A stretch of 33,638 nucleotides of DNA, from the NCBI GenBank assembly GCA_026396675.1, contig JAPLWI010000007.1, forward strand, positions 1-33,638. The letters are read 5' to 3'. Position numbers and translations under genes: made by a program. The notes beneath the pieces are model-generated. The model saw only the letters and a program-made list of their open reading frames with translations, was not told the DNA's origin and did no database searches. Source of the stretch: Candidatus Kaiserbacteria bacterium. Its GTDB lineage: Bacteria; Patescibacteriota; Minisyncoccia; Phycocordibacterales; Phycocordibacteraceae. Shown one piece after another: positions 3,689 through 28,259 of the stretch (position 1 is its first letter; the number at the start of each line of letters is the position of its first letter).

Positions 3689-4384
3689 ATGATTTATCTT
3701 TTTTACGGTACCGATAGTGAAAAGGTGCGCACCAAGGCGTTTGAATGGGTAGCGAAAGCGCGCGCAAAAGAACCGAATCTTGTCTATGCGCGCATTTCGC
3801 GTGAGGAACTTACCGATAATGCGCTTGAAGATGCTGCGCTTTCTGGAGGGCTTTTTGTAAAGCGTTTGCTTATTCTTATCGATGATCCATTCTCGAATAT
3901 GAGGGACTTCGTAAATCCATCATCAGATGATGGATTTACGAAGTCCGAACATTCAGTGCTTGACGATCATCTCGATGCGCTCGCAACTTCAGATAACGCA
4001 ATTATTATTCTCGCGCCGAAACTCGCATCAGCAAAAGCGAAAAAAATCGTAGCAAAAGCGAAGGTTGAATACAAATACGACAAACCATTCGCGCGCGAAG
4101 ACGCGCGCGGATTTAATTCGAATTTAGTTAATGCACTAGCAGCGAAAGATTGTGGAAAACTCTGGTTGGAAATTAATCGCGCGCTTCGCGCAGGTGATGC
4201 TCCAGAAATGCTTCACGGTCTTCTACATTGGAAGGCGCGCGACATTATGGAAAAAGGAAGCAGAACATGGAAACCGCAAGAATCGCGACAGCTCTCGCTC
4301 GCACTAATTGCACTTCTTCAGGATTCCCGCCGCGGCAGTCTCGACTTGTCTCTTTCGCTCGAAAAGTTCGCATTATCGATTTAA
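3689..4384 (+). CDS. holA: DNA polymerase III delta subunit (HolA-like), diverged
   Basis: 231 aa, much shorter than E. coli HolA (343). Delta is the clamp-loader subunit that opens the beta clamp. Evidence: N-terminal MIYLFYGTDSEKVRTKAFEW (the IYLLYGED-type start of the family), a LFVKRLLILIDDP strand with LSGG before it, an NAIIILAPKL strand, and a helical C-terminal half with LLHWKARDIM. Start chosen as the first ATG, 4 nt after polA. The stretch RDFVNPSSDDGFTKS is encoded by a perfect 21-bp inverted repeat and reads like an insertion after the LIDDPF strand. The short length and lack of strong motifs make this a family-level assignment. Confidence 0.75.
   Translation: MIYLFYGTDSEKVRTKAFEWVAKARAKEPNLVYARISREELTDNALEDAALSGGLFVKRLLILIDDPFSNMRDFVNPSSDDGFTKSEHSVLDDHLDALATSDNAIIILAPKLASAKAKKIVAKAKVEYKYDKPFAREDARGFNSNLVNALAAKDCGKLWLEINRALRAGDAPEMLHGLLHWKARDIMEKGSRTWKPQESRQLSLALIALLQDSRRGSLDLSLSLEKFALSI
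3904..3946 (+). repeat. Perfect 21-bp inverted repeat within holA
   Basis: Left arm 3904-3924 begins GGACTTCGTAAATCC, one spacer base (A3925), and the right arm 3926-3946 is its exact reverse complement. The frame stays open across it. Confidence 0.9.
4090..4109 (+). repeat. CG-alternating inverted repeat in holA
   Basis: CGCGCGCG at 4090-4097 and again at 4102-4109 (self-complementary) with loop AAGA. Encodes FAREDARGF. May be simple codon bias toward CGC/GCG. Confidence 0.5.
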
Positions 4385-4391
4385 AAATTTG

Positions 4392-4464
4392 TGCGCCCAC
4401 CAGGGCTCGGACCTGGGACCTTCTCCTTAAAAGGGAGCTGCTCTACCAACTGAGCTATGGGCGC
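4392..4464 (-). tRNA. tRNA-Lys(TTT)
   Basis: Full cloverleaf on the minus strand: acceptor GCGCCCA/TGGGCGC, D arm GCTC AGTTGGTA GAGC, anticodon loop CTTTTAA, T stem CCAGG/CCTGG, discriminator A. The T loop is TCCGAGC, with C at position 55. Base pair 27-43 is a G-A mismatch. CCA is not encoded. The 3' end lies 7 nt from the end of holA on the other strand. Confidence 0.95.
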
Positions 4465-17333: not shown

Positions 17334-17936
17334 ATGCCGAACATGACCCCATCAGGAATCACTATAGGACAAATCGGGAAGATTCAGGAACTTTTAGGTG
17401 CTGGGTTACGCAAGTCCGGGCTTCCGAGCGAACCAACCCAAATGATCATCGAACAGCAAGGAGAGGCATTTGTGACCGAGTTCATTGCTGCATTCCGCAA
17501 GCGCGTGGAGGCGGTCGACAACATAGCTGTTCGACACGTTTTCGTAAACCGCAGTCGCATGGCATGCGAAGCACTCGGAGCAACTGGTCAGCGGCAGTTT
17601 GTCAACAGTGACGTAGCCAAAAAAATGCCAAGAGCCGAAAACGATAAAGCAGACGTAATCTTCTTCAAGCTCGGGCGCTCCATCAGTGATTCCGATTTGG
17701 AGAGGGAGTACGAACTGCGCGGACTCATGCCAGCCGATCCGTATTCACTCGCTGCCGTCAACGAAGCAGATCCCGCATTTGCCAATGGACATCCCAACAG
17801 TACCCATTGGAAGAATGCCGATGATAATTGGTGTTATGCCGCGTTCAGCCGGTGGGACGATGAGCTGGACGTGGATGTCAACCGCGACGATGGTGACTGG
17901 GGTGACTACTGGTGGTTCGCCGGCCTTCGTAAGTAA
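17334..17936 (+). CDS. Orphan cassette protein with Asp/Trp-rich C-terminal tail
   Basis: 200 aa. Start decided by AAGAGGAGG 8 nt before the ATG. No signal peptide or membrane segment. Residues 1-60 are helical (ITIGQIGKIQELLGAGLRKSGLP). The centre contains VIFFKLGRSISDSDLEREYELRGLMPADPYSLAAVNEADPAFA, and the end is HPNSTHWKNADDNWCYAAFSR then DGDWGDYWWFAGLRK. I recognise the ADPYSLAAVNEADPAFA / WWFAG(L/V)RK pattern as a protein type that recurs in Parcubacteria-like genomes, often in several copies whose tails differ; this memory cannot be checked here. The tail loosely resembles C-type-lectin-fold ligand-binding modules. It has its own promoter and terminator, so it is transcriptionally isolated from rluA and rplS. 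Function unknown. Confidence 0.85.
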   Translation: MPNMTPSGITIGQIGKIQELLGAGLRKSGLPSEPTQMIIEQQGEAFVTEFIAAFRKRVEAVDNIAVRHVFVNRSRMACEALGATGQRQFVNSDVAKKMPRAENDKADVIFFKLGRSISDSDLEREYELRGLMPADPYSLAAVNEADPAFANGHPNSTHWKNADDNWCYAAFSRWDDELDVDVNRDDGDWGDYWWFAGLRK

Positions 17937-24929: not shown

Positions 24930-27900
24930 ATGGGACATATGGCAGAAAAATCGGAGGTCGCAAAGCGAGAGGAGAAGATTCTCGCGTTTTGGGAACGCGA
25001 GCAAATTTTTGAAAAATCGCTCATAAAGAAAGCGCCAAAAGGTGACTTTATTTTTTACGAAGGTCCGCCAACAGCCAACGGCAAACCCGGTATTCACCAT
25101 CTTGAAGCCCGTGCTTTTAAAGACGCCATACCACGGTACAAGACAATGCGTGGTTATCGTGTGAGTCGTCGCGCTGGTTGGGATACGCACGGGCTTCCTG
25201 TCGAGTTGCAAGTCGAGAAAGAACTCGGCTTTTCAGGAAAGCCGGATATAGAAAAATATGGCATTGCCGCATTCAATAAAAAATGTCGTGAAAGTGTATT
25301 TACATACATTGATCTCTGGGCAAAATTCACAAAACGCATCGGCTACTGGGTTGATGAAACAAAAGCATACTTCACTTTTGATAGCTCCTATATGGAAGTG
25401 GTTTGGTATCTCTTCGCCAAGACAGCAAAAGACGGGCGACTCTACAAGGATTATAAAGTCGTACCGTGGTGCCCGCGCTGCGGCACAGCGCTTTCTTCGC
25501 ACGAACTTGCGCAGGGATATCAAGATGTAAAAGACCTCACGATTACCGCGAAGTTCCATTTAAAACCGGATCAAGAATTTGGGAATGGTAAATATAAAAC
25601 GAAGGACACGGCATATATTCTCGCGTGGACAACAACTCCTTGGACCTTGCCGGGAAATGTCGCGCTTGCGGTTGGAAACAATATTAAATACAGTTCTCTT
25701 CGAGTAAAAGATGTTCCGGAACTCCTGATTGTAGCAAGTGATCGTTTACAAGATGTTTTTAAAGACAAAGAATTCGAAATTGTACATGACGACATAGTCG
25801 GAGCTGATCTCGTCGGTCTCAAATACGAACCGCTCTACGATTTTGCAAAAAATCTTGCGTCAGAATCAGAGAAAACAAAATTCAACAAAGCATTTCAAGT
25901 ATATCTAGCGGATTTCGTCACCACCGAAGAGGGCACCGGCATTGTGCACACGGCCGTGATGTACGGCCAAGAGGATTTTGAATTGGGAAACAAAATTGGA
26001 TTGCCCAAAGTGCATCTCGTGAATCCGGAGGGAAAGTTTATTTCTGGCGCTGGGTTTCTTGAAGGGAAATCGGTAGTTGGAGAAGAAACATCAGTTGAAA
26101 TATTAAAAGATTTATCAGCGCGAGGTCTTCTTTTCAAAAAAGAACCATATACGCACACATATCCTTTCTGCTGGCGCTGTAAGACACGGCTTATCTACTA
26201 TGCGCGTGATTCGTGGTATATCCGTATGTCTGATCTGCGCGAGAAGCTTGTCGCGGAAAATAAAAAAGTCCATTGGGAACCGGCGTATATCCGCGATGGG
26301 CGAATGGGCGAGTGGCTCGCGAATGCGAAGGACTGGGCGATAAGCCGTGAACGCTATTGGGGCACGCCTCTGCCAATTTGGCGTAGCTCTGATGGAAGCG
26401 AGCAACTTGTTATCGGTTCAATTGATGAGCTCAAGAAATACACAAAAAAATCTGGCAACAAATATTTTGTAATGCGCCACGGTGAAGCTGAGAATAACGT
26501 CAAAGGCATTCCTGATCCAACGAATCGGGAACACTATCATTTAACGCAAAACGGACAGGAGCAGGTAGAAAATGCCACAAAGGATTTGAAAAGTCACGAC
26601 GTTGCGTATATCTACACATCTCCGTTTACGCGAACACAAGAATCCGCGGATATCATCGCAACGAATCTCGGCTTACCCAATAGCCGTGTCATAACAGATG
26701 ATCGACTACACGAACTTTGTGCAGAAGAAACGAACCAAGAAGGCCGTCGTCGCATTGGAGAATTTCTGTATGATCTTGAGAACAAACACAAAAATGAAAC
26801 GATTCTCATCATTACACACGGTTTTGGTGTCAAAATATCAGCCGACGTTGCTTTGGGGGCAGCCACACGTACTCTCATAGAACTCTCGAGTCAGTGCACG
26901 TTAGTTTTTGCAAAACCAGTATCACTTGATTTCGTCCCGCTTCCGCACAACGAGGAATACGAACTTGATCTCCATCGACCGTATATTGATGACATTATTC
27001 TCGTTTCAGAAAAAGGAACAGAATTACGAAGAACACCAGAAGTAATGGATGTGTGGTTTGATTCCGGTGCGATGCCATTCGCACAGGCGGCAAAAGAGAA
27101 AGGGAATCAGTCGTTAGAGAATTTCTTGAAGAAAATTGAATATCCAGCAGATTTTATCTGCGAAGCCATTGATCAAACACGCGGCTGGTTCTATACACTT
27201 CTTGCTATTGGAATGCTCGCTGGGCGTTGCGCAGCTTTTAAAAATGTCATCTCACTCGGACTTTTGCTCGACGCCGAAGGCCAGAAAATGAGTAAATCAA
27301 AAGGTAATATTGTTGATCCATGGATAGAAATGGAAAGGTGGGGTGCTGACGCATTGCGCTTTTGGATGTACAGCGTGACACAGGCAGGTGATTCAAAAAA
27401 TTATGATGCCAAGACGATGAAAGAGGCAGCAAAAGTGCTTTCGTGGGCAGAGAATAGTACAAAGTTCTACAAGATGTTTAAAGACATTCCTCAAATGAAA
27501 GGAACACAGAAAGTAATTGATCGTTGGATGTATGCGCGAGTGGATTTAACTGTCTCAGCCGTTACAAAGACGATGGACGAATACCGGCTTTTTGAAGCGA
27601 CACGAGCCATCGCGAATCTTTCCGAGGATCTATCGCAATGGTATGTCAGGCGTATACGCGACCGAGTACGAGAAGGGGATTCAGATGCAATAGAAACTTT
27701 ACGTGAGACACTTCGTGTCTTGGCACTTCTCCTTGCTCCATTTGTCCCATTCATTGCGGAAGAAATTTATACGGAAGTAAAACGAGACGAAGATCCTATA
27801 AGCGTGCATCTCGCAGATTGGCCAAGCTCAGGAAATAAATGGAATTTCTTACGCGCAAAAGCAGATAGTAAATTGATTGCAGAAATGCAAAGAGTCCGTG

Positions 27901-28259
27901 CATTGGCATCAGAGGCGCTTATGTTACGGCAGAAGGAGGAAATTAAAGTACGTCAGCCACTCGCGTCGCTCACCGTGCTGGACTCACTTTCAGATGAACT
28001 TGCACAGATTCTCGCTGACGAAGTAAATGTGAAGAAAATAATTGTCGGTACAGAACTCTCACTCGACACGACCCTTACTCCCGAACTCATTAAAGAAGGC
28101 GATGAGCGCGAGATGGCGCGCGCGGTTGCCGACGCGCGCAAAACAGAAAACCTCTCACCGAAAGATTTCGCACGCGCAGAGATTCGCGCGGGAGGCAAAT
28201 ATCCTGTGACGTTGTCGACTGGCGAAGTGCGATTCGATCTTGTTCGCGATGCGGCATAA
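24930..28259 (+). CDS. ileS: Isoleucyl-tRNA synthetase with inserted histidine-phosphatase domain
   Basis: 1109 aa. Class I synthetase: [19 protein letters not shown] (HIGH variant, H56/H57), [10 protein letters not shown], editing domain with [11 protein letters not shown] (from W233), [24 protein letters not shown] (R475), [22 protein letters not shown] at 786-790, then the C-terminal anticodon helices (EIKVRQPL). About 160 extra residues lie between TPLPIW and [10 protein letters not shown] (D680). Residues about 509-672 read [13 protein letters not shown] (RHG, H517), [26 protein letters not shown] and ILIITHGFG (H630), the complete active-site set of the histidine phosphatase (phosphoglycerate mutase-like) superfamily. 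The single uninterrupted frame argues for a real fusion. GAGGT lies before the ATG, 6 nt after argS. recO starts 11 nt inside the end. Confidence 0.97.

Follow-up and report, generated by a model that had tools for sequence, protein, structure and literature searches.

A translated palindrome in holA of a Kaiserbacterium, probably a REP-like mobile repeat of a dispersed family

The palindrome in holA and the loop that it encodes

We analysed a stretch of 33,638 nucleotides from a Candidatus Kaiserbacteria bacterium (contig JAPLWI010000007.1 of assembly GCA_026396675.1), referred to here as the window. In it, holA, which encodes the delta subunit of the clamp loader, directly follows polA and contains a perfect palindrome of 43 nt that is read through as protein (Table 1). 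The identity of holA is based on a match to an NCBIfam model, which falls under the curated cut-off, and on a predicted fold that agrees with those of clamp loader delta subunits (3gli_F, 3zh9, and 1jr3_D). A Pfam search of the protein gave no match. Directly after holA there is a tRNA gene (4392 to 4464, minus strand; Rfam E value, 4e-14).

A previous reading of this DNA from its sequence only had described an inverted repeat of 21 bp with a gap of 1 nt inside holA and had judged it too long to be a chance product. Both statements were confirmed. The arms are 100% complementary, and the number of perfect 21-bp arms with a gap of at most 16 nt expected by chance in the window is 1.4e-7. In ten codon-block shuffles of the window, the longest arms measured only 8 to 11 bp, and the window itself holds no second repeat of this kind. 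As also proposed, the frame is kept through the palindrome, as the 231-amino-acid open reading frame (ORF) stays open and the segment corresponds to R72 to S86 of the protein. The predicted fold of the whole palindrome is strong (-21 kcal/mol; z score, -10.4). A lone GGACTTCGTAAATCC unit folds weakly by itself, and therefore we do not claim a strong single-unit hairpin; the copy that flanks a transposase gene (see below) folds better.

Table 1. Coordinates of holA and of the palindromic element within it
Feature	Coordinates	Strand	Remarks
holA, clamp loader delta subunit, 231 aa, host of the insert	3689..4384	+	TIGR01128, E value 1.4e-8; fold
Palindromic element, two head-to-head REP-like units	3904..3946	.	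43 nt
Left arm, holding the unit core GGACTTCGTAAATCC at 3904-3918	3904..3924	+	
Right arm, with the unit core GGACTTCGTAAATCC on the minus strand at 3932-3946	3926..3946	-	
ATGT tag (ACAT on the plus strand), candidate guide tetranucleotide, 2 nt from the foot of the right-hand unit	3949..3952	-	
Codons of the added peptide RDFVNPSSDDGFTKS, HolA residues 72-86	3902..3946	+	Translation; pLDDT < 50

The proposal that the palindrome is an insertion at the protein level also held. In an AlphaFold2 model of HolA, the element-coded residues are the main stretch with a predicted local distance difference test (pLDDT) score below 50, and the insert thus coincides exactly with a loop that is predicted to be disordered. 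Alignment of about 30 HolA proteins from the same genus showed the segment to be absent or replaced, and in some relatives the loop is nearly absent. This indicates that the segment is not a conserved protein feature; such conservation would have argued against an insertion. Other sites of HolA can also carry palindromes, as an LPAGRQ-coding palindrome, CCTGCCTGCCGGCAGGCAGG or a near variant of it, is present in frame elsewhere in HolA of relatives. It was seen in L192 (HolA at 1501-2223) and, twice, in L199 (HolA at 214-930).

The repeat family and the Y1 transposases

Searching the genome for the half-unit, as the sequence-only reading had suggested, showed that it is dispersed as inverted pairs. 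Copies were found by pattern searches and at single loci in the 640-kb genome. The 15-mer GGACTTCGTAAATCC occurs 16 times, which makes 8 exact pairs, and with the variant pairs (two on C17 and one on C29) the family comprises 11 pairs. Each pair consists of two units in opposite orientation that resemble repetitive extragenic palindromic (REP) sequences. In most pairs the units stand head to head and their cores are about 13 nt apart; two pairs are tail to tail. Eight of the 11 pairs lie in frame within seven genes, namely, holA, tgt (two pairs), tatD, dus, gltX, a nifS-like gene (similar to those for cysteine desulfurases), and tsaD (the Pfam names for the hosts other than holA being TGT, TatD, Dus, GltX, aminotransferase V, and TsaD), and the remaining three are apparently intergenic. 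In all 11 pairs, at least one unit has ATGT near its foot, and overall 15 of the 22 units have this tetranucleotide, compared to a background of 1.8%. The peptide DFVNPSSDDGFTKS is common to HolA, TGT, TatD, and GltX. It recurs because the consensus palindrome leaves only one of its three frames open and reads alike on both strands. The copy in Dus has a variant centre and is read in a different frame.

The same genome has five genes with the Y1_Tnp domain (PF01797). Those tested match NCBIfam NF047646, the REP-associated tyrosine transposase (RAYT) model, with E values from 4e-7 to 2e-9, under the curated cut-off. These genes have palindromes at one or both ends, the sequence of which differs from gene to gene. 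The C16 and C17 genes have the core TTTCGTAAA, and the copy at the C16 transposase gene, AATGATGGATTTCGTAAACCCATCAT, is identical to a family unit in tatD, AATGATGGACTTCGTAAATCCATCAT, at 24 of 26 nt. An extra in-frame copy lies inside the transposase ORF itself, 63 to 103 nt before the HUH motif, in C16, C17, C23, and several sister species, and two transposase genes have a second internal copy about 216 nt after this motif. The palindrome 3' of the C16 gene (L035:2271-2300) may also encode the first residues of an MnmA-like neighbour (MMDFVNPSLNGKKIFVGMSGG), if that start is used.

Whereas in the window's genome the palindromes at the transposase genes match those of the family in kind, the nearest being 2 of 26 nt off, in two sister species the transposase-flanking and in-gene palindromes are exactly identical. 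In G013, the 21-mer GGTGGACACCTAGTGTCCACC flanks a Y1 gene on both sides and is present in 16 copies with zero mismatches and no near-miss copies. It lies in frame in holA, at the same loop as in holA of the window, and in tgt, a desulfurase-like gene, tsaD, and ligA. In G007, the insert in gltX is identical to a 25-mer that flanks the Y1 gene of that genome. In-gene palindromes of G005 and G013 have 13-nt cores that equal the core at a Y1 flank of their own genome.

Same loops, different palindromes

We surveyed the orthologs of the seven family sites outside holA in up to 17 species. Of 86 ortholog sites, the windows of which add up to 6.4 kb, 22 have a perfect inverted repeat of at least 11 bp, compared to 2 such repeats in the 34.5 kb of remaining coding sequence and 0.3 in all in codon shuffles. 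The count includes repeats of high GC content that G005 and G013 have at the NifS site. These look like codon composition, and we rejected them as mobile palindromes; without them, the number is 20 of 86. The same loops are thus recurrently occupied by palindromes. At orthologous sites the palindromes are mostly unrelated between species, and other species have a short loop with nothing inserted. The HolA loop follows this pattern, as the arms in G017 are changed yet complementary and different palindromes are present in G005 and G013. In the close pair G002 and G008, only one has an insert in gltX. In LigA-like genes of G013 and G017 (L225 and L238), we also noticed palindrome-derived inserts at about one site, which encode GGHLVST and GLTKSLGLRKS.

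The re-use of loops could mean that palindromes were inserted repeatedly at a small number of permissive places or that an inherited element was overwritten. Tentatively, and with somewhat less than even odds, certain loops of core genes may be inherited landing pads that are re-targeted or overwritten when the recognition hairpin of the transposase changes, so that unrelated palindromes succeed each other at the same residues of HolA, TGT, TsaD, GltX, Dus, and LigA throughout the genus. Another history of the sites, which we consider less likely than not, is that of an old insertion in a common ancestor that has been kept palindromic and homogenised, its arms being corrected from one another (quasipalindrome template switching) or from copies elsewhere (conversion). 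This possibility concerns the history of the site and is compatible with an origin from a transposase. It would account for G000 and G017, which have the element at the same HolA and TGT residues with different yet complementary arms, and for the tsaD palindrome of G002 and G008, in which the outer arms are common and the core is swapped but still paired. However, G000 and G017 do not form a sister pair in a tree built from concatenated gene segments, as G017 groups with G009 (Shimodaira-Hasegawa-like approximate likelihood ratio test support, 99), and at these sites the intervening species carry either unrelated palindromes or no palindrome. Moreover, it is difficult to see how point changes in a single ancestor could give rise to unrelated palindromes at one loop.

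Origin of the repeat and its relation to known systems

Other RAYTs and the IS200/IS605 enzymes, which are Y1 transposases of the HUH type, bind hairpins in single-stranded DNA and cut near a tetranucleotide. We consider it probable (about 0.84) that the palindrome of 43 nt is a mobile, REP-like repeat, with inverted units like those of bacterial interspersed mosaic elements (BIMEs) and REP doublets forming hairpins (REPINs) and with an ATGT tag at one foot or at both, that it was spread by a Y1 transposase, and that it is tolerated in a loop of HolA. Most likely, a single-strand transposase of the Y1 type (HUH, RAYT-type) in this genome, or a member of the same clade that has since been lost, would recognise the hairpin and spread the units, and ATGT is a candidate for its guide tetranucleotide. 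The loop that follows the LIDDPF strand of HolA may then have received the element; a disordered segment of 15 residues, added in frame, would be harmless there, and selection could have kept it in a working protein. Insertions at less tolerant places would have been lost and those in frame in tolerant loops would have survived, and the loop peptide would be a passenger.

The support comes from sequences and predictions, from which we infer the movement of the element, and several observations weigh against this explanation. A clear ATGT tag is missing from 7 of the 22 units, and the tag is neither GTAG nor CGTC, neither of which is found at the foot of any of the 22 units. The exact GGACTTCGTAAATCC is present at the ends of none of the transposase genes found in the genome, the nearest copy differing by 2 nt per unit. 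The C29 transposase gene shows two copies of its palindrome at the 5' side only, and in scripted searches several Y1 genes of other species had no clear flanking palindrome. The HolA proteins that are nearest by identity have a similarly long loop without any palindrome. Finally, when the proteins are compared at the other sites to their shortest orthologs, the net gain in length ranges from 8 to 17 aa depending on the gene, and therefore there is no clean, constant insertion footprint and the loops appear reworked. Either insertion was accompanied by trimming or these loops are variable in any case.

Alternatively, the hairpin may be retained because it serves the mRNA or the DNA, for example in stability, pausing, or binding of a protein, and its coding may be incidental. 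The strong predicted fold is in line with such a role, as is the fact that REPs affect mRNA stability. Yet at any given site most sister species are without a hairpin, the sequence varies freely between species, and the Rfam search of the window gave the tRNA and chance matches (one of them at 3893-3956) and no family that fits the palindrome. All of this makes such a function quite improbable. Still less credible is that DFVNPSSDDGFTKS, shared as it is by four proteins, is a functional motif from which the palindrome follows by coding. We rejected this idea, since the repeat is also intergenic and, in Dus, in another frame, while the same loops of other species encode unrelated peptides and the loop is predicted to be disordered. 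An artefact of assembly or amplification was rejected as well, being very unlikely: palindromes are typical products of fold-back chimeras and the genome is an assembly of 30 contigs, but the 11 pairs lie at unrelated sites with the frame kept in 8, and species with separate assemblies have inserts of the same kind at the same residues, between orthologous flanks.

The mobile repeat proposed here resembles most closely the REP, BIME, and REPIN sequences that accompany RAYTs (TnpA_REP). Common to both are short hairpin units (here in dispersed repeats within the 20- to 65-nt range), often as inverted dimers, a tetranucleotide near the foot (here at 15 of 22 units and a candidate guide), and a gene for a Y1 HUH transposase that carries the same palindromes (letter for letter in G013 and G007, in kind in the genome of the window). 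The differences are the tag, the phylum (Patescibacteria), the location of most copies inside core genes rather than between genes, and the recurrence of unrelated palindromes in the same loops, which is seen in several genes across the genus. The family therefore does not fall within the GTAG- or CGTC-tagged REP superfamily, either by its tag or by a predominantly extragenic location. Previously, it was shown that REPs can lie within ORFs, as dimers that encode 20 to 30 aa, sometimes twice per gene, and in tRNA-related genes, and that recB of two Xanthomonas carries different REPs at about one site (Di Nocera 2013, PMC3733652). In-frame REP copies within the transposase gene are described for TnpA_REP subclass 2.4 (Quentin 2018, PMC6006769); the genes studied here share such copies, but the main one precedes the HUH motif and only two genes have one after it. 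As REPs in genes, including REP transposase genes, have been published, the kind of element is already known. IS200/IS605 elements also share the HUH/Y1 transposase and terminal hairpins. Their proteins are about 150 aa, whereas the frames here are about 215 to 290 aa, the palindrome differs from gene to gene, and there are more small repeats than genes.

The sequence-only reading had compared the palindrome in principle to the palindromic elements of Rickettsia (RPEs; Ogata et al. 2002), which, as described in PMC3733652 and PMC10969869, are likewise translated in frame within core genes that are unrelated to each other. By description this likeness holds in principle. However, RPEs are given as about 150 bp (PMC10969869) compared to 43 nt here, and the REP/RAYT system is closer, such palindromes being found at the ends of Y1 transposase genes. 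CGTC-type repeats, including the intragenic RPE-4 and RPE-6, were reported without association to transposase genes (PMC3733652), whereas here the link is direct. We found no report in the literature of a REP or a RAYT in Patescibacteria (candidate phyla radiation) or Kaiserbacteria. The analysis based its own assignment to this group on HolA relatives with the names Candidatus Kaiserbacteria or Paceibacterota. Apparently new, as far as the literature found goes, are the presence of such repeats in Patescibacteria, ATGT as their tag, the exact identity of coding palindromes with those flanking a transposase gene, and the extent to which the same loops are used again.

Two other features of the window may be mentioned. 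At 24930-28256, a tRNA synthetase of the IleRS type (1,109 aa) has a histidine phosphatase domain (His_Phos_1) inserted at residues 513-598 (Pfam E value, 1.3e-20). The product of 17334-17936, for which Pfam gave no match, shares its C-terminal part (FFKLGR ... WWFAG) with that of L035:5794-6291, which makes a small paralogous family in the same genome.

The way in which coding palindromes spread, those of Rickettsia among them, has so far been unclear. The presence of one palindrome, identical in every letter, at the ends of a Y1 gene and inside essential genes of one small genome makes this question testable. For annotation, peptides shared between proteins, such as DFVNPSSDDGFTKS and GGHLVST, should be regarded as derived from repeats and not as domains. 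The findings also point to a way in which the proteins of the streamlined Patescibacteria acquire new loop segments, and if the loops are indeed landing pads, core proteins would continually gain new loop peptides from a mobile element.
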